Virus record (IMG/VR): IMGVR_UViG_3300036985_000997
Span: 1-38,347 of that record
Strand: one strand, 5' to 3'
Origin: a virus
DNA: 38,347 nt
This document shows, piece after piece, positions 25,883-35,417 of the stretch. The notes under the pieces are model-generated. The model was given only the letters and a program-made list of their open reading frames with translations. It was not told the origin of the DNA and did no database searches. The first letter of the stretch is position 1, and each line of letters opens with the position of its first letter. The position numbers and the translations under genes are program-made.

Positions 25883-26035
25883 ATGGCTACTAAACCTGGA
25901 CTGTACGCAAACATTCACGCTAAACAGGCACGCATTAAAGCTGGCTCTGGTGAGAAAATGAACAAAGTTGGCAGTAAGGCTGCGCCTTCGGCCAAAGACT
26001 TCAAAGACTCCGCCAAGACGGCCAAGAAAAAATAA
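25883..26035 (+). CDS. Small Lys-rich protein upstream of the portal gene (50 aa)
   Basis: The frame reads MATKPGLYANIHAKQARIKAG, then SGEKMNKVGSKAAPSAKDFKDSAKTAKKK. 'KPGLYANIHAK..RI..GSGEKM.K.G.KgAPtA.dF..AAKTAK' is a pattern I know from genes just before portal genes in podoviruses. It shares a base with the portal start (TAATG). Strong positive charge and co-location with DUF6321-like gene suggest a DNA- or head-associated role; unproven. Confidence 0.78.
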   Translation: MATKPGLYANIHAKQARIKAGSGEKMNKVGSKAAPSAKDFKDSAKTAKKK

Positions 26036-28233
26036 TGGCTGATTACACAGGCATGGTGGCGGTAGGCAACGTAGCCAATGGTGGCGGTAAAAAGGACGAC
26101 GACTCCAACGTACTGGCAACCGCCCGCAGCCGTTTGGACATGGCGATATCGGCGCTGTCTGAGTCCCGCGAGGACGAGATTGACGATCTGAAGTTCTACG
26201 CTGGATCACCTGACAACCACTGGCAGTGGCCTGCTGACGTACTGGCTACCCGTGGCGCGGTGCAAGGGCAGACAATCAACGCCCGCCCGTGCCTGACCAT
26301 CAACAAACTGCCGCAGCACGTACGGCAAGTCACCAATGACCAACGGCAAAACCGCCCAACTGGCAAAGTTATTCCAGCCGATGACAAGGCCGACATCGCC
26401 GTCGCCGAAGTATTCAACGGCATGGTCAGGCATATTGAATACATCTCGGACGCAGATGTCGCTTACGACACCGCCTGCGAAAACCAAGTCTCCTACGGCG
26501 AAGGCTATATCCGAATCCTAACCGAGTATTGCGACGACAATACCTTTGACCAAGACATCAAAATTGGCCGAATCCGCAACAGTTTTTCGGTTTACATGGA
26601 TCCGGCAATCCAAGACCCTTGCGGCGCGGACGCCAAGTATTGTTTTGTAACCGAAGACATCCGCAAAGACGATTACCAGCGGATGTACCCCGACTCAGCG
26701 CCCATTACCACCCTGCAAACGCTAGGTGTGGGCGATCAGAACCTGTCTCAGTGGCTCAACGAGGACACCATTCGCGTTGCAGACTACTACTACGTCGATT
26801 ACGACAATGCAACGCTGAATTTGTACCCTGGCAACGCCACGGCTTTTGACGGGACGCCCGAAGACAAGCAATTGCGGGCCATGTATGGCAAGCCAAAGAA
26901 GTCTAGGCAGTCTGACCGGCCACGGATCAAGTATTGCAAGATAAACGGCTACGAAATCTTGGAAGAACGCGAGTGGGCGGGCAAATATATCCCCATTGTC
27001 CGCATTGTGGGCAACGAATTTGAGGTCGATGGCCGTTTGTACGTGTCGGGCTTGGTGCGAAACGCTAAAGACGCCCAGCGGATGTACAACTATTGGGTTT
27101 CACAAGAAGCCGAGATGCTGGCTTTGGCTCCAAAAGCGCCATTTATCGGCTACGGCGGTCAGTTTGAGGGCTACGAGAACCAATGGAAGACCGCCAACAC
27201 GACCAACTGGCCGTATTTGGAGGTTAATCCAGACGTTACAGACGGCGCGGGCGCTACGCTGCCACTACCCCAGCGGGCGCAGCCGCCAATGGCTTCCAGC
27301 GGGCTTTTACAGGCCAAGGCAGGCGCTTCTGAGGATATTAAAGCGTCCACCGGCCAATACAACGCTTCTTTGGGCATGACTTCCAACGAACGCAGCGGCA
27401 AGGCCATTCTGGCCCGCCAGCGCGAGGGTGATGTCGGGACGTACCACTTTGGCGACAACTTGGCCCGTGGTGTGCGGTATCTGACCCGTCAACTGATTGA
27501 TTTGATCCCCAAAATCTACGACACCCAACGCATTGCCCGCATCATTGGTGAGGACGGCGAAACCAGCATGGTCAAGATTGACCCAATGCAGCAAGAGCCG
27601 GTCAAGAAAATCATGGATCAGAACGGGATCGTGATCGACAAGATTTACAACCCTGGCGTGGGCAAATACGATGTGGTGGCTACCACCGGCCCAGGCTACG
27701 CAACCAAGCGCCAAGAGGCGTTGGAAGCAATGGGCCAACTGTTGCAAGGTAACCCCCAACTATGGCAAGTAGCCGGTGACCTGTTCGTCAAAAACATGGA
27801 TTGGCCTGGTGCCCAAGAAATGGCAAAGCGTTTTGCCAAGACCATTGATCCTAAGTTGATGAGCGATGGCGACAAGCCGCCCGAGTTGCAGGCCGCAGAG
27901 CAGCAAATTGAAGCGATGGGTCAAGAGATGGAGCAAATGCACCAGATGATCCAAAACGTCGGCAAGTCTATTGAGATGCAAGAGCAACGCCGCAAGGATT
28001 ACGAGGCTGAGATTAAGGCTTACCAAGCTGAGACACAGCGCATCACGGCTACACAAGCGGGCATGAACGAGCAGCAGATTCAAGACATTGCTATGGGCGT
28101 GGTAGCGGCTGCAATGGAGTCTAATGGTCAAATTGGCGGTATTCCTGAAATGCCAGAGCAGCAGATGGACGTGGGCATGGAAGGTATGCCTGAGATGCCG
28201 CAGCCTATGCCACCTATGGAGCAGCCACAATGA
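26035..28233 (+). CDS. Portal protein, P22 gp1-like
   Basis: The 732-residue protein matches P22-type portals: LDMAISALSESREDEIDDLKFYAG near the N-terminus, GRPCLTINKLPQHVRQVTNDQRQ-type segment (here NARPCLTINKLPQHV), ACENQVSYGEGYIRILTEY, then FSVYMDPAIQDPCGADAKYCFV, and a C-terminal Gln/Met-rich coiled coil (about 620-690) with a Met/Pro/Gln tail resembling the barrel of P22 gp1. It forms the dodecameric ring through which DNA passes. Length is like P22 gp1 (725 residues). It overlaps the next gene by four bases. Confidence 0.93.
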   Translation: MADYTGMVAVGNVANGGGKKDDDSNVLATARSRLDMAISALSESREDEIDDLKFYAGSPDNHWQWPADVLATRGAVQGQTINARPCLTINKLPQHVRQVTNDQRQNRPTGKVIPADDKADIAVAEVFNGMVRHIEYISDADVAYDTACENQVSYGEGYIRILTEYCDDNTFDQDIKIGRIRNSFSVYMDPAIQDPCGADAKYCFVTEDIRKDDYQRMYPDSAPITTLQTLGVGDQNLSQWLNEDTIRVADYYYVDYDNATLNLYPGNATAFDGTPEDKQLRAMYGKPKKSRQSDRPRIKYCKINGYEILEEREWAGKYIPIVRIVGNEFEVDGRLYVSGLVRNAKDAQRMYNYWVSQEAEMLALAPKAPFIGYGGQFEGYENQWKTANTTNWPYLEVNPDVTDGAGATLPLPQRAQPPMASSGLLQAKAGASEDIKASTGQYNASLGMTSNERSGKAILARQREGDVGTYHFGDNLARGVRYLTRQLIDLIPKIYDTQRIARIIGEDGETSMVKIDPMQQEPVKKIMDQNGIVIDKIYNPGVGKYDVVATTGPGYATKRQEALEAMGQLLQGNPQLWQVAGDLFVKNMDWPGAQEMAKRFAKTIDPKLMSDGDKPPELQAAEQQIEAMGQEMEQMHQMIQNVGKSIEMQEQRRKDYEAEIKAYQAETQRITATQAGMNEQQIQDIAMGVVAAAMESNGQIGGIPEMPEQQMDVGMEGMPEMPQPMPPMEQPQ

Positions 28234-28592
28234 CCGCCGCGCAATTAATGGGGTTACTGTTCTTAGGCCGTAATGTGGCTCACAGCGTCCACTTGAACAC
28301 CCGTAGCTATTCCAAGCACGTTGCCTTGCAGACGTTCTACGACAGTGTGATTGATGTGGCTGACGCTTTTGCCGAAGCCTACCAAGGCCGTCACGGTTTA
28401 ATTGGCCCTATCGCCATTCCAGCGGCCAAGAAAACTACAAACATCATTGAGTTCTTGCAGGCCCAGCTTGATGAAATTGAAAAAGGCCGCTACGAAGTTT
28501 GCGACAAATCTGACTCGTCAATCCAACAATTGATTGACAACATTGTTGAGTTGTACTTGACCACGCTCTATAAACTGCGCTTTTTAGCATGA
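28230..28592 (+). CDS. Helical phage protein (120 aa), DUF5856-like
   Basis: The sequence MTAAQLMGLLFLGRNVAHSVHLNTRSYSKHVALQTFYDSVIDVADAF... is all-helical with conserved-looking H18, H21, H30, E49 and Y51 (EAYQGRHGLIGPI), which is reminiscent of ferritin/Dps-type bundles; DUF5856 is the closest named family I recall. A metal- or DNA-related function in the head is possible but not shown. Position: directly after the portal, overlapping both neighbours by four bases. Confidence 0.7.
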   Translation: MTAAQLMGLLFLGRNVAHSVHLNTRSYSKHVALQTFYDSVIDVADAFAEAYQGRHGLIGPIAIPAAKKTTNIIEFLQAQLDEIEKGRYEVCDKSDSSIQQLIDNIVELYLTTLYKLRFLA

Positions 28593-29526: not shown

Positions 29527-29898
29527 ATGGCAAACCCAAACATAGTCAACGTAACCACAATTTACGGCAATACTTCTTATTTAATTCCAAGTACGACAGC
29601 AGCCGCGACTTGGACTGCGCTTACGCCTGCGGTTGGCACGGTTAATAAAATTGACAACATCGTTGCGTCAAATGTAACTGCCGCCGTTGCAACCGTAACC
29701 GTGGCAATTAATAGCGCAGCGGCTGGCGCTGGTACAAACTACCGACTTGTCTACCAAGTGCCTGTGCCTGTTAATGCTTCAGTTGTTGTTGCTGATAAGA
29801 GTACGGCGTTTTACCTTGGGGAAGCACAGTCTATTGTGGTGACTGTTGGTACTGCATCCGCAATTGAATTAACCGCGTCCTATGAGGCTATTACCTAA
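29527..29898 (+). CDS. Small beta-rich virion protein (123 aa)
   Basis: The protein contains NIVNVTTIYGNTSYLIPSTTAAATWTALTPAVGTVNKIDNIVASN and VPVPVNASVVVADKSTAFYLGEAQSIVV. This Val/Thr/Ala-rich, beta-sandwich-like pattern is widespread in fibre or decoration loci of aquatic phages; function is not known in detail. It lies between the fibre gene and the LamG protein gene, with its stop overlapping the next start. Confidence 0.68.
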   Translation: MANPNIVNVTTIYGNTSYLIPSTTAAATWTALTPAVGTVNKIDNIVASNVTAAVATVTVAINSAAAGAGTNYRLVYQVPVPVNASVVVADKSTAFYLGEAQSIVVTVGTASAIELTASYEAIT

Positions 29899-31997
29899 TG
29901 TCTACTAGGTATAAAGGTTCGGTCATGTCGTCCACAGCGGCGACTAACTCTAATTCGGCGGCTATTGGAATTTGGCGTTCTAATGAAGTGATGCAAGGAT
30001 TAAAAGCATCTGCATGGCCTTCAAGTATTGTTACAGACCCTTACTTTAACTACGTCACGGTTTTGCTGCGCGGTGACGGTACTAACGGCGCTCAGAACAA
30101 CACGTTTTTAGACTCCAGCACAAACAACTTTTCGATTGTCCGCAACGGCAACGCTACGCAAGGTACGTTTACGCCGTATGGTGATAACTGGGGAAACTAC
30201 TTTAATGGAACAGCAGATTATTTTTTTGCGCCAGCAAATGCGGCATTTGCTTTTGGTACTGGCTCATGGACAGTAGAGGCTTGGGTGTATGTAACAACAC
30301 TTCAAACGCTTATATTGTTTGATACTAGAAGCAGCGCATCTACTGCCGGAATTGGCTGCACAATTTTTTCTGACGGCAAACTCTATTATTCTGGTTCTGC
30401 AAACACTGCGCTAACAACTACTGCAATCACTGCTAATTCTTGGAATCATGTTGCATGGGTTTACAACGGAACTACATTAACTGGTTACATAAACGGAGTA
30501 AGTGGTGGAACTGCAACCCCAGCATTTAACATTACACAAAATAACGGATATGTTGGAAGAACAGGTTTTTCTTCTTCTGCCTTTATGCCTGGTTATGTTT
30601 CAAATTTAAGAGTAGTAAAAGGCACGGCTGTTTATACAACCACATTTACGCCAAGCACAACGCCATTAACTGCCATTAGCGGCACATCTCTTTTAACTTG
30701 CAAAAGCAATAGATTTATTGACAATTCAAGCAATGCTTTTGCATTAACTACTTCAGGTTCGCCATCCATCCAACGCTTTAGCCCATTTAGCCCATCTGCT
30801 GAATACAGTGCAAGTGTTATTGGTGGGTCAGGGTATTTTGCTAGAGCATCTTCGCAATATTTAAGTGTTTCAAATAATACTGGTGGGCAATTTTCTTTTG
30901 GTACTGGAGCATTTACTATTGAATGCTGGATATATTTATCATCAATGCCATCTGGAACTGGTTACCCTGCAAGTTTCTGGATGTTTGGTGGTGGCCCAAC
31001 CAATTCAGATACAGGTGTAGATTTTTACATTAACAACACGCAAATTGGTTTTAATTTAGTAACATTTGTTACGGCAACTGCAATTGGCAATCATGGAATG
31101 TCGGTAGGAAAATGGTATCACGTTGCTGTTGTTCGTGGTGGGACATCAAACCAAACGGTGTCTATTTATGTAAACGGAACCCGTGTTGCAACCGCAAGTT
31201 CAGTTGTCGCAACTGCGGATGCAGCAGCTACAGGTATTGCAATTTGCGCGGCAGAGCCATCTGGAGCAACAAGCGGCAATTTTGATGGGTATATAAGCAA
31301 CTATCGAATTGTTAAAGGCACTGCTGTTTATAGTCCAACATCTTCCACGCTTACCGTTCCAACAGTACCATTAACTGCAATCACCAATACATCATTGCTT
31401 TGCAACTTCACCAACGCTGGCATTTACGACAGCGCTGAGATGAACAATTTGGAAACTGTTGGCAATGCACAAATAAGTACAACCGTTGTTAAGGTTGGCA
31501 CTGGATCAATGGCATTTGATGGCACTGGCGATTGGTTAACTGCTATTGATACGCCAAATCTTCAAATGGGGTCTGGAAACTTTACTATTGAAGGTTGGGT
31601 TTATCTTAATGCAATAGGCGTTGCTTATGGAATTATCAGCAAAGGCACTTCATCAACTGGAATTAGCGTAAATATAACATCTGGAAATAAACTTCAATTT
31701 AGTTATACCGCTTCAAATCTTACTGGTGCTACTTCATTGGCCGCATCCACTTGGTATTATTTTGCGGTTGTACGTTCTGGAACTGCAACAGGAAACTTAC
31801 AAATTTACCTTAATGGATCAGTAGACGCGACAAGCGGAGGTGCGGTTACTGATAACTTTAACCAAACAAGTATTTTGTATGTTGGGGCAAGCAGAACGGG
31901 CACAACTGCATTAAATGGTTATATAGACGATTTACGGGTAACTAAAGGTTACGCAAGAACTATAACCGTCCCAACAGCGGCATTTCCGGCTCAATAA
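29898..31997 (+). CDS. Triple LamG (concanavalin A-like) receptor-binding protein
   Basis: The 699-residue protein holds three LamG-type jelly-roll domains. Each has a 'YFxxASSQYL/FNGTADYF ... FGTGxFTIExWVY' opening (about residues 92-125, 310-345 and 535-570) and a 'WYHVAVVR / SWNHVAWVYNG ... IYVNGxxV' middle, ending with 'GYIxNLRVVKGTAVYT'. LamG domains in phage proteins bind sugars or cell surfaces. The gene is clearly AT-richer than the head and replication genes, with many A/T-ending codons, which suggests separate origin or fast exchange. It may be an adhesin on fibres or capsid. Confidence 0.85.
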   Translation: MSTRYKGSVMSSTAATNSNSAAIGIWRSNEVMQGLKASAWPSSIVTDPYFNYVTVLLRGDGTNGAQNNTFLDSSTNNFSIVRNGNATQGTFTPYGDNWGNYFNGTADYFFAPANAAFAFGTGSWTVEAWVYVTTLQTLILFDTRSSASTAGIGCTIFSDGKLYYSGSANTALTTTAITANSWNHVAWVYNGTTLTGYINGVSGGTATPAFNITQNNGYVGRTGFSSSAFMPGYVSNLRVVKGTAVYTTTFTPSTTPLTAISGTSLLTCKSNRFIDNSSNAFALTTSGSPSIQRFSPFSPSAEYSASVIGGSGYFARASSQYLSVSNNTGGQFSFGTGAFTIECWIYLSSMPSGTGYPASFWMFGGGPTNSDTGVDFYINNTQIGFNLVTFVTATAIGNHGMSVGKWYHVAVVRGGTSNQTVSIYVNGTRVATASSVVATADAAATGIAICAAEPSGATSGNFDGYISNYRIVKGTAVYSPTSSTLTVPTVPLTAITNTSLLCNFTNAGIYDSAEMNNLETVGNAQISTTVVKVGTGSMAFDGTGDWLTAIDTPNLQMGSGNFTIEGWVYLNAIGVAYGIISKGTSSTGISVNITSGNKLQFSYTASNLTGATSLAASTWYYFAVVRSGTATGNLQIYLNGSVDATSGGAVTDNFNQTSILYVGASRTGTTALNGYIDDLRVTKGYARTITVPTAAFPAQ

Positions 31998-32217: not shown

Positions 32218-32385
32218 ATGAACAAGTTTTTTAACGGTAGTTTTTTTAGCGGCGGGTTTTTTTCCTCGTTGACTGATTTTTTTGGTGGTAGTTTTTTTAG
32301 TAGTGGGTTTTTTGAAGAAGCCCCCGTTTACGTTACGCAACTTTTTATCGAATTAAGATCATTTACTGAAAGAAGGAGATTCTAA
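32218..32385 (+). CDS. Phe/Gly/Ser-rich micro-protein (55 aa)
   Basis: The frame begins MNKFFNGSFFSGGFFSS, repeats the theme in DFFGGSFFSSGFFEE, and ends APVYVTQLFIELRSFTERRRF. Di-phenylalanine pairs recur every 5 residues, separated by Gly/Ser/Asn, so the N-terminal 32 residues are a short tandem-repeat beta-type or amyloid-like strip. Similar 'FFNGxFFxGGFF' proteins are known to me from phage fibre loci only as uncharacterised. The stop shares a base with the next ATG (TAATG), and the AAGGAG of the next gene lies in its last codons, so it is probably translated. Its function is unknown. Confidence 0.6.
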   Translation: MNKFFNGSFFSGGFFSSLTDFFGGSFFSSGFFEEAPVYVTQLFIELRSFTERRRF

Positions 32386-32690
32386 TGGCGCTCAATCTTA
32401 AGGCTATCACTTCTGTCCTGGGCTACCAGCAGATCACCAGCTTGTCCGCAGCTACGGCCCTGACCGTACCCCAGAAAAACATTAGTGGCCTTGCGGGGTC
32501 ACCTCGTATTGCTATCATTACGCCAGAGACTCAAGCAGTTCGTTGGCGAGATGATGGTGTGGCTCCTACCGCTTCGGTTGGGATGCCCCTTGCGGCTGGT
32601 GTCACTTTGCAATACGATGGCGACTTGACTCAAATCAAGTTCATTGAGCAAAGCGCCAGCGCGAAGCTGAACATTACTTATTACTCGTAA
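32385..32690 (+). CDS. Small beta-rich virion protein (101 aa)
   Basis: The product MALNLKAITSVLGYQQITSLSAATALTVPQ... contains RIAIITPETQAVRWRDDGVAPTASVGMPL and FIEQSASAKLNITYY. The 'AvRwRDDGvaPTasvGm' pattern recurs in small structural proteins of aquatic phages and resembles a compact beta-barrel. AAGGAGA precedes the ATG. A virion role is inferred from position in the fibre/spike cassette. Confidence 0.7.
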   Translation: MALNLKAITSVLGYQQITSLSAATALTVPQKNISGLAGSPRIAIITPETQAVRWRDDGVAPTASVGMPLAAGVTLQYDGDLTQIKFIEQSASAKLNITYYS

Positions 32691-32699
32691 GGAGCCGTT

Positions 32700-33197
32700 A
32701 TGGACTTTCATGGCGAAGGCGGCTCAATGAGCCCCACAAATTTAATTGAGTACATCCAAAAGCAGCTTCCTACTGACTTGACCACTTTGGTCAATTTGCA
32801 AGCTGAATTGGCCCAGCGCCAAGGCGCGATGTCTGCGGTTCAAGATGCTGCCGCAGATCGGGCTAAGGCTGCTGAAGAATTGGCTACCGCCAAAGACCAG
32901 GCTGCGGTTATGGTTGCGTCTGCCAAGGATATGGAATCTGCGGCCAAAGCTAAAGCTGCTGACCTCAAGGCGCGTGAAGCTGCTTTGGCCGATAGTGCTA
33001 AAGCATTTGAAACGACCAGCGCAGCGCGTGAAACGGCCCTAAATGCGCGTGAAAAAACGTCTGATACCCGTGAGATGCACCAACAACAAACGCAAACCAA
33101 TTTGGATGCCTTAAGCGCATCTTTGGCAGCACAAGAAACTGCGTTACAAGCCCGAATTAAAACACTCCAAGATAAAGTTGCCGCAATAGGGTTGTAA
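32700..33197 (+). CDS. Ala-rich coiled-coil protein (165 aa)
   Basis: After MDFHGEGGSMSPTNLIEYIQKQLP the product is one long Ala/Lys/Glu coiled coil (about residues 30-160, with AADRAKAAEELATAKDQAA and AREAALADSAKAF). GGAG precedes the ATG. Coiled coils beside spikes can be trimerisation or scaffolding factors. No family is recognised with confidence. Confidence 0.7.
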   Translation: MDFHGEGGSMSPTNLIEYIQKQLPTDLTTLVNLQAELAQRQGAMSAVQDAAADRAKAAEELATAKDQAAVMVASAKDMESAAKAKAADLKAREAALADSAKAFETTSAARETALNAREKTSDTREMHQQQTQTNLDALSASLAAQETALQARIKTLQDKVAAIGL

Positions 33198-33201
33198 AAA
33201 C

Positions 33202-35235
33202 ATGACCACATCAATTGCAACACCTCCAAAACTACAATTCTTTACTGCTGGCGGCGTTCCGCTATCTGGCGGTAAGTTGTACAGCTATGCGGCGGGCACT
33301 ACTACGCCATTGGCAACGTACACCAGTTCAACTGGCGGCACAGCTAACACCAACCCTGTTATTTTGGACAGCCGAGGCGAAGCTGACGTTTGGTTTGGCG
33401 CGGGGCAATACAAGTTAAAACTTACCAGCTCCACAGACGTTGATGTCTGGACTGTTGACAATCTTAACGGGCCTGACCAAGCTACTCTTGCAAGTCTTGC
33501 AGCATCTAGCGGGTCTTCTCTTGTTGGCTATATTCAAAGTGGCAGCGGCGCAGTTGCCACTACAGTGCAAGCCAGGTTGCGTCAATATGTAAGCGTAATT
33601 GACTTTGGCGCGGATACATCAGGCGTGTCAAGTAGTTCAGCGGCGTTTACTAACGCAAACAATTTGGGCAAACAAGTTGTAATTACTAAAGGGACTTATC
33701 TTTTAAGCACAAGCGTTACTTTTACAGTTCCAGTGGTCATAGAATTTGGTGCTGTTATTACAGTACCAAACGGCGTAACATTGGCGTTTAACGGCGGATT
33801 TAACGCAGGCGTGTACCAATGTTTTAACACTACTGGCACTGGCTTAGTTACGTTTAGTCCTCAATATACGGCTGAAGGTTTTGCTGAATGGTGGGGTGCA
33901 GCAAGTGGAGGAAGTACAGATTCGGGGCCAGCAATCAATAAGGCAATTGTTGCGCTGTTAAAAGTGCAGTTGATGGGCGCGGAATATTTTTCGTCAGTAA
34001 CAATAAAAATTCAACTACCAAACAGAGAATTGTGCGGCGTTGGATATTCTTACTTAGGCGCTGGCTCCGCAGACTTAATGAGTCGTATAGTGGTAACAAG
34101 CGGGTCGCTTGATATTATATTGGTTGGCTTAGATGCAGAGCCAGCTGGTGGTATTAATGATTTTCTTAACCAAAGCGCCGTTCGTAATCTTTATGTGACC
34201 CGTTCCGTAGCGCCAGTAATTTCTAGTAGTTGCAACGGCATTAAATTGCAATTTACGCAATATGCACAATTAGAAAATGTAAGGTCGCATGACTCAATTT
34301 ATGGTTTTCAATTTATTGGTTCGGTTTACGCAATAGTTTCAAAATGCTCAGCTATTCGTGTTGCCGATGGTACTGGTGCTGGTACAGACCTTTGGTATGG
34401 GTTTTATATAAATGGTTTTACTGACATTGGCGCGGCTGGCGGGAATGCTTCATTGTATTTAAATTATTGCAACGCCTCTTGTAATAACGGTACTTTGGCT
34501 AATGCTGGCAGTACAGGATTTTATTCGGATGATGCATTTTCAGATACGTTTATGGAAAGCCCAGAAACACGCACTTGCACGACTTCAATTGTTGTGCTTG
34601 GGAATGCTAGTGAATTAGGAGTTAGTGCAAATGTAAATTTTCAAATTAAAAATCCCATTAGCGATCAATTTTATGATTATGGAATTTTTATTAAAGAGGC
34701 TAATACTTTTGGTTCAGTTTCAATTTCAGGTGGATATTACGGCCCACAAAATAATGCTTTAGCTTGCGTATATATTCAAGATACTAAAGCGTCTGTTCGT
34801 ATTGATGGGGGCCAATTTGTTATGAATGGCACAGCTACAGCATTTGGCATTACATTAAATAACGTAAGCAACGCCATTATTGACAAACCGCAAATTTTAG
34901 AAAGCCGCACTTCAGGCGTAAATGCCGTTGATGCGGTAAGTTGCTACATTGCTCCTTTTTGTAAAAATCATTATCAACCTTTGGAAAATACAATTGAATT
35001 TTCCGGCGCTTGCAATGCAAATTATTTAGCGCCATTTGTAAATGGTAATGTGAATGTTGCAACCTTGGGCGTTAAATTTGTTGGAACTACAAACGAACGA
35101 AATGAAATAAATTGCACTGGTCTTAATTCATCAGCAATTTCAGGCGGCAGCGCAAATAAATTAACAATTAACGGTGTTCAAATTACATCTACTGGTTTAA
35201 CTGGTACTAACCTTGTTTCCGGCGTTATGACATGA
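33202..35235 (+). CDS. Tailspike, P22-type N-terminal domain and beta-helix
   Basis: The 677-residue protein starts with the head-binding-type domain, FFTAGGVPLSGGKLYSYAAGTTTPLATYTSS, then PVILDSRGEADVWFGAGQYKLKL (residues about 12-75). It continues with VSVIDFGADTSG (about 130), a segment typical of the entrance to pectate-lyase-like right-handed beta-helices, and EWWGAASGG near 230. The rest is consistent with a beta-helix of short repeated strands. It would bind and perhaps degrade host surface polysaccharide. The C-terminal two thirds are AT-richer than the N-terminus, as expected for exchangeable receptor-binding parts. The stop overlaps the next start (ATGA). Confidence 0.83.
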   Translation: MTTSIATPPKLQFFTAGGVPLSGGKLYSYAAGTTTPLATYTSSTGGTANTNPVILDSRGEADVWFGAGQYKLKLTSSTDVDVWTVDNLNGPDQATLASLAASSGSSLVGYIQSGSGAVATTVQARLRQYVSVIDFGADTSGVSSSSAAFTNANNLGKQVVITKGTYLLSTSVTFTVPVVIEFGAVITVPNGVTLAFNGGFNAGVYQCFNTTGTGLVTFSPQYTAEGFAEWWGAASGGSTDSGPAINKAIVALLKVQLMGAEYFSSVTIKIQLPNRELCGVGYSYLGAGSADLMSRIVVTSGSLDIILVGLDAEPAGGINDFLNQSAVRNLYVTRSVAPVISSSCNGIKLQFTQYAQLENVRSHDSIYGFQFIGSVYAIVSKCSAIRVADGTGAGTDLWYGFYINGFTDIGAAGGNASLYLNYCNASCNNGTLANAGSTGFYSDDAFSDTFMESPETRTCTTSIVVLGNASELGVSANVNFQIKNPISDQFYDYGIFIKEANTFGSVSISGGYYGPQNNALACVYIQDTKASVRIDGGQFVMNGTATAFGITLNNVSNAIIDKPQILESRTSGVNAVDAVSCYIAPFCKNHYQPLENTIEFSGACNANYLAPFVNGNVNVATLGVKFVGTTNERNEINCTGLNSSAISGGSANKLTINGVQITSTGLTGTNLVSGVMT

Positions 35236-35417
35236 CCAACGAACAAGCAATGCGAGTGGCTATACAAAGCGGCGCTGAAGTTGATGATCGCTATATGTAC
35301 TCCATTACGCTTACCGAAAAAGGCTTGTATGAATTTGCTAGAGCAATTGCTGCTGCGGAAAACCGATCTTTAGAAGATAGAGTAGAAAAAGATATGTATT
35401 CGGCAATAGCTAGATAA
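35232..35417 (+). CDS. Small helical protein after the tailspike (61 aa)
   Basis: The product MTNEQAMRVAIQSGAEVDDRYMYSITLTEKGLYEFARAIAAAENRS... is short and mixed alpha/beta with no recognised family. Coupling to the tailspike (ATGA overlap) suggests an accessory or assembly role. It ends the receptor-binding cassette; a short non-coding stretch with two hairpins follows. Confidence 0.62.
   Translation: MTNEQAMRVAIQSGAEVDDRYMYSITLTEKGLYEFARAIAAAENRSLEDRVEKDMYSAIAR

Follow-up and report, generated by a model that had tools for sequence, protein, structure and literature searches.

A diphenylalanine-repeat microprotein that may be the bodyless allele of a hypervariable virion-appendage gene in uncultivated phages

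The microprotein locus

The DNA analysed here (hereafter, the window) is a 38,347-nt stretch, positions 1-38,347 of IMG/VR record IMGVR_UViG_3300036985_000997, and represents a phage whose portal is of the P22 type (Pfam P22_portal, E 6.7e-175). A short open reading frame (ORF) rich in phenylalanine pairs (hereafter, the FF microprotein) lies immediately before a gene for a conserved 101-aa protein (the partner). We refer to the position directly 5' of the partner as the slot, and to the gene that fills it and ends in a characteristic short tail as the slot gene. The features of the region are:

28230-28592: conserved 120-aa gene after the portal (Pfam DUF5856, 8.4e-20; phrog_858, labelled starvation-inducible transcriptional regulator)
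29898-31997: LamG-domain protein, upstream (Pfam Laminin_G_3, 3.8e-48)
32218-32385, + strand: FF microprotein gene, 55 aa and stop (from its frame, relatives and pN/pS)
32227-32262, + strand: first FF block, three FF pairs at period five (from sequence and block counts)
32278-32313, + strand: second FF block (from sequence)
32353-32382, + strand: near-constant tail LRSFTERRRF, where homology between unlike slot genes resumes (32359 against locus L083)
32374-32378, + strand: AGGAG, the ribosome-binding site of the next gene, inside Arg codons of the tail and six bases before the next ATG
32385-32690, + strand: conserved 101-aa partner (from relatives; all beta in the model)
32700-33197, + strand: 165-aa protein, which several relatives keep alongside the tail and partner (homologous block to 33187)
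33202-35235: pectate-lyase-like tail spike, downstream (PHROG tail spike, 1.5e-07; Pfam match below the cut-off)

The microprotein gene starts with an ATG at 32218, stops with a TAA at 32383-32385 and encodes 55 residues (MNKFFNGSFFSGGFFSSLTDFFGGSFFSSGFFEEAPVYVTQLFIELRSFTERRRF). Its FF pairs start at residues 4, 9, 14, 21, 26 and 31 (spacing 5,5,7,5,5), which agrees with a preliminary description, made from this DNA alone, of FF pairs about every five residues. The coordinates likewise bear out the stop/start overlap and the ribosome-binding site in the gene end that it had noted, as the last base of the microprotein stop is also the first base of the next ATG (32385-32387). Its term "receptor-binding cassette" was fair, given the LamG-domain protein upstream and the tail spike downstream, and it was right to see here a real but easily missed small gene of the fibre cassette. 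It overlooked the near-constant tail, the unrelated bodies that replace the FF part in other phages and their repeated exchange.

Relatives and coding potential of the FF microprotein

The FF microprotein gene is a conserved coding gene. When the same 55 residues were shuffled, at least six FF pairs arose in 868 of 100,000 trials, so the pattern is improbable, which alone is no proof; we take the gene as real because its relatives repeat both the pair counts and the period-five spacing. A scan of IMG/VR returned 98 stretches encoding a microprotein relative, 80 of which were kept, and by our own pattern at least 70 of these 80 loci have the FF triad and the tail, some of the others matching by the tail alone. 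Homologues, on whose existence the preliminary description had made its proposal depend, are therefore present.

The FF part varies by units of three pairs. Among 90 distinct relatives, and with Y allowed for F, 3, 6, 9 and 10 aromatic pairs occur in 67, 16, 6 and 1 proteins, respectively; FF pairs thus number a multiple of three in 89 of the 90, and 240 of their 271 spacings equal five. The window gene itself has its aromatic pairs in threes at period five, and one 51-nt unit of it is absent, in frame, from the near relatives L028 and L087.

Substitutions indicated purifying selection on the FF part. Its pN/pS was 0.25 among 10 distinct 55-aa relatives, whose tails gave 0.16. For distinct 38-aa stretches, analysed as two sets (26 and 20 sequences) that overlap, the FF part gave 0.30 and 0.24, and the tail 0.36 and 0.27. 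Both alternative frames were interrupted by stops (29/29 and 29/29 distinct sequences in one comparison, 69/73 and 73/73 in another), frame 0 being stop-free by construction as ORFs were the unit of selection.

Every FF codon pair in the window is TTTTTT, and these T runs might be read as a slippery or phase-variable stretch to which the peptide is incidental. In the relatives, however, 78 of 332 FF codon pairs contain TTC, the other frames carry the stops just described and pN/pS is about 0.25. We consequently rejected frameshifting or phase variation, which we regard as extremely improbable.

Searches of Pfam (E up to 1), PHROGs and PDB sequences gave no match to the microprotein, nor did tblastn against a named-phage collection, where the low-complexity filter was on and may mask the FF part. 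No description of a family combining the FF part, the tail and the slot was found in the parts of the open-access literature that were available.

The partner gene and its neighbours

The 101-aa partner was assigned to no family by Pfam, PHROG or PDB sequence searches and was not found in the named-phage collection by tblastn; 25 of its relatives gave six PHROG matches in all, with a best E no better than 0.074. AlphaFold predicted an all-beta protein (pLDDT 85.6, pTM 0.74). A fold search with this model matched nothing in the PDB at E 0.001 or better and gave 23 matches at that level in BFVD, of those listed by name, one was a tail fibre protein and most were uncharacterised. In a VIA comparison, PM2 spike P1 came first (Z 8.1), followed by a gamma-carboxylase domain and cupins (about 6-8) and the HFTV1 turret (6.5). 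The arrangement is too common for the fold to name the partner. For the 165-aa protein, Pfam and PHROG searches gave no convincing family.

By portal, the nearest named relatives are DSL-LC05 (77%) and ctNMl277 (69%), and neither has the partner or the slot gene within the region examined. The DSL-LC05 genome itself comes from a lake metagenome assembly (PMC10611076). Its fibre region includes a 52-aa gene (L516:11479-11637) with LLCENGDNLVQEDGGLILLE at its end, and some long slot proteins begin in a similar way (LLCEDGSYLVQEDGGKL in L110).

Eight relatives of the partner lie in bacterial contigs, and only one of them (L225) has a tail gene before it, ending LRSFTQRGRD. Five of the eight come from records named as Achromobacter or Burkholderiales, which are betaproteobacteria; assigning the window phage to a host of betaproteobacterial type is a guess. 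In a Bradyrhizobium MAG contig (L229:3820-4188), the partner relative starts with the secretion-signal-like MKKFLLPLLGLLIAPPAHA.

A near-constant tail in front of the partner

We profiled what precedes the partner at loci retrieved through the partner gene itself, since such sets, although their patterns are loose, can gauge how constant the tail is, and pattern-picked sets cannot. Of 80 near loci, 12 with duplicate partner DNA were set aside. At all 68 remaining distinct loci, a tail ORF (44 FF and 24 long) lies intact and directly 5' of the partner, as in the window, where an LRSFT..RRF-like tail directly precedes the 101-aa gene; the frame disruption that the preliminary description had named as a ground for doubt was thus not seen at these 68 loci. 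In the raw loci, three of which are copies of the window and many of which overlap, a tail ORF is found in 143 of 144. The exception is the FF relative L022, in which GAATG stands at the partner start (2147) in place of the TAATG seen elsewhere, so that the stop is gone and the frame runs past the overlap, through either a sequencing error or a true loss.

Two distant partner proteins were used as queries to retrieve 127 distinct loci, labelled with a loose pattern. The partner is directly preceded by a tail ORF in 103, by a relative of the 120-aa gene in 14 and by something else in nine, and one locus is cut off. Some phages thus have the partner without a slot gene (these 14 loci, and L226 and L227). 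The distant tails follow a looser pattern, (L/I)RSFT(E/Q/T)xxR(F/I), in which, of 59 distinct tails, 57 have the first R, 55 the S, 53 the F, 54 the T and 56 the final R, and the distance from the stop to the next start also varies.

The tail is kept at the protein level. Among 72 distinct tails picked by pattern, the two codons of the ribosome-binding site are AGG in 69 and AGA in 70, and elsewhere in the tail the codons of the near set vary synonymously. Conservation at the DNA level only was rejected on this synonymous variation. Both constraints seem to be active, as the protein pattern persists at distant loci and AGG-AGA is nearly fixed in the near set; even so, the tail may persist merely as a recombination joint, or partly for its ribosome-binding site.

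Across FF and long forms, similarity of the partner tracks similarity of the tail (rho 0.51, reached in 0 of 300 permutations, which ignore the relatedness of loci). The ten residues preceding the tail track the partner equally (rho 0.54), so the correlation is not peculiar to the tail and could reflect simple linkage.

A GxYxLTG repeat protein of another phage, the Manatee Spring podovirus (MW202742.1; L233:5049-5639), offers a parallel: its last residues are GVFIRRRRD and, as at the window tail, its stop codon overlaps the annotated start of the following gene.

Long proteins in the same slot and exchange at the tail

Of 136 distinct tail ORFs picked by the tail pattern, 90 are FF proteins and 46 are others. 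The long bodies are unlike one another and include YTVTGQSATLLRSK-type repeats, ETATGTD repeats, WVGGTGTW bodies and glycine-rich bodies, and, in loci found through the tail itself, NTNTFYAATV repeats. Their ORF lengths run stop to stop, the longest (962, L095) being open at a contig edge, and the class labels of the bodies are rough (L116 and L176 are filed under TGQ despite other kinds of body). With the Pfam limit set at E 0.1, seven long forms yielded a single hit, to a glycine-rich domain (in L127), and their PHROG matches were weak or of unknown function. Two long forms were searched against named phages by tblastn; one had no match and the other had repeat-type matches in six records.

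Bodies can be wholly different between phages with near-identical partner genes, with homology resuming at the tail. Window and L083 are homologous over 26024-27975 and 28268-28585, then share nothing until 32359, inside the tail; homology continues to 33187, the spike is unmatched and homology resumes at 35409. The 38-aa FF protein of L033 and the 735-codon frame of L116 precede partner genes with 97.4% identical DNA; the last nine codons of the two slot genes are 96% identical, the preceding nine 78% and the stretches before these 48 and 44%. Over 136 pairs drawn from different classes, all with more than 80% identity in partner DNA, the corresponding means are 93, 65, 35 and 31%; for 722 same-class pairs (partners 80-95% identical) they are 96, 87, 74 and 73%, both using the rough class labels.

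In a tree of 210 partner genes (92 FF and 118 long; eight rows whose partner was broken or lacked the motif had been dropped), at least 16 changes between FF and long forms are needed (13-18 over bootstrap trees), and at least seven are forced by well-supported branches. In a previous tree, built from 232 rows, the changes numbered 16, nine of them forced.

As the slot and the tail are common to the long forms, the microprotein could be the remnant of a decayed long fibre gene, kept for its end alone. We consider this very unlikely, as the FF part is itself under purifying selection and recurs, in whole blocks, in 90 distinct relatives.

An aromatic triad at the start of long slot proteins

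Three F or Y at period five were found within the first 45 residues of 17 of 37 distinct non-FF tail proteins, against a shuffling expectation of 0.54 and at most 5 in 1000 shuffles, although the 17 rows include many near copies and represent five or six kinds by eye. Examples are FGFDPFSTAPF, YGFSAYAQTPY, IFDIGIFDSGIF, AFEPTAFQGTVF and AFQTDAFQGDAF. The FF block is probably an N-terminal module of this type in which the aromatics are doubled. Not every long form has the triad, which is missing from the many WVGGTGTW forms, and convergence could account for its resemblance to the FF block.

A scan for AFQxxAFQxxAFQ gave at least 120 stretches. Among the matches listed, the triad lies at most 40 residues from the frame start in 105 of 117, and an LRSxT-type tail ends only one (L430) of the 104 proteins with a complete C-terminus. 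L430 combines an AFQxxAFQxxAFQ N-terminus with a Gly/Ala-rich body and the tail RLRSFTEEH, and is followed by the 101-aa and 165-aa genes and then by genes that we take to be scaffold and capsid from their likeness to the window.

Other AFQxxAFQxxAFQ proteins, of about 118-166 aa, have an acidic leucine-rich end of the ELDDEEALLLL type (L403, L409, L413, L420, L427, L440, L444 and L463). A putative fibre gene lies upstream in 8/8 of the examined loci of this type; that of L440, the only one tested, matches PHROG tail proteins. A putative scaffold gene, so called by position alone, lies downstream in L403, L409, L420, L427 and L444. The L440 triad protein had no match in the named-phage collection by tblastn.

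Predicted structure and membrane properties

From 52 aligned sequences, AlphaFold modelled the microprotein as helices at residues 5-11, 14-23, 25-28 and 31-52 with no strand; the mean pLDDT is 81.6 and the pTM only 0.41, a weak model. The preliminary description had suggested a beta-stack or amyloid-like element of the fibre. Diphenylalanine peptides self-assemble, and the Gly/Ser/Asn spacers would allow turns, but the weak model is helical and strand-free and leaves this suggestion unsupported; we consider it improbable. Neither the microprotein model nor that of the partner settles a function.

Membrane activity, also raised in the preliminary description, may apply to the peptide. Interface partition sums are -5.8 kcal/mol for block one and -2.3 kcal/mol for block two, and the highest 19-residue mean hydropathy of the microprotein is 0.91. 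An ordinary transmembrane peptide was rejected on the latter value.

These figures bear on a reading in which the tail serves only as a recombination joint and for translational coupling, and the FF part is a separate membrane-interface peptide unrelated to the long forms. Such a reading would account for the next gene's ribosome-binding site in the tail codons, for the return of homology between unlike forms at the tail and for the interface energy of block one. It sits poorly with the synonymous variation outside the two site codons and with a protein pattern that persists, if looser, at distant loci despite a varying stop-start distance, and the low hydropathy maximum speaks against its membrane-peptide part. 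We hold it to be unlikely, yet worth serious consideration.

A proposed minimal allele of a virion-appendage gene

On balance, we favour the view that uncultivated phages with a P22-type portal have, in their fibre region, a hypervariable slot gene for a virion appendage, and that the microprotein is its smallest allele, one without a body. Ahead of the tail, the slot gene has either one to three FF blocks, with three aromatic pairs apiece, or a long body that can be exchanged, and the gene for the conserved 101-aa beta protein comes directly after it. From the neighbouring genes we infer a virion location for the slot protein, which would make the slot gene the source of an appendage. The virion, or else the 101-aa partner, may hold the protein by its tail, by analogy with the layout of T4 Hoc, and the FF block would be an exaggerated form of the period-five aromatic triad found N-terminally in many long forms. 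With the FF allele, the appendage socket would then be occupied by a short hydrophobic cap in place of a fibre.

A more far-reaching version, which we put forward tentatively and think doubtful, is that the FF block and the triads (FGFDPFSTAPF, IFDIGIFDSGIF, AFQxxAFQxxAFQ) are one undescribed docking motif for appendages, and that fibre and bodyless FF cap interconvert, switching the appendage on or off through the swap of one module at a ten-residue joint.

A microprotein that gene finders can skip has its end and its place in common with repeat proteins of several hundred residues from related phages, and the two have repeatedly replaced each other. Should it be a bodyless appendage allele, it would show the minimum of a virion fibre gene that must remain, its tail would mark a natural joint for module exchange, and it would offer a short probe for hypervariable appendage genes in uncultivated phages.

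Comparison with known systems

The FF block resembles pentapeptide-repeat proteins in its period of five and its aromatics amid small residues, but the FF gene has only three pentads per block. The Pfam pentapeptide models did not recognise the microprotein, which has no family at E up to 1, and the quadrilateral beta helix of that type is absent from its weak helical model. AFQxxAFQxxAFQ proteins have a period-five aromatic triad as well, and L430 also has the tail and the partner; they differ in having single F rather than FF, and many end in the acidic leucine-rich stretch instead of an LRSxT tail.

Tailed phages exchange fibre modules at conserved joints, and slot genes are mosaic in the same manner, with homology resuming at a short conserved stretch. 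In most tail fibres, however, the constant, virion-bound end is N-terminal, whereas that of slot genes lies at the very C-terminus, where its codons also contain the ribosome-binding site for the gene that follows.

The closest layout is that of T4 Hoc. In Hoc and Hoc-like proteins, the C-terminal part is constant and the remainder is built of repeats and variable in length, short forms included (PMC10385173). Slot genes also combine a constant C-terminus with a remainder of very different length, although the constant part is a domain of about 96 residues in Hoc and about 10-17 residues in slot genes. The C-terminal capsid-binding domain of Hoc (T4 Hoc 281-376) was not detected in the 55-aa microprotein by Pfam or PHROG searches, and seven long forms have no Ig-like Pfam domain (E up to 0.1) of the kind strung together in Hoc. 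The slot gene is therefore laid out like T4 Hoc and is not a member of the Hoc family, and by this analogy its tail may act as an anchor.
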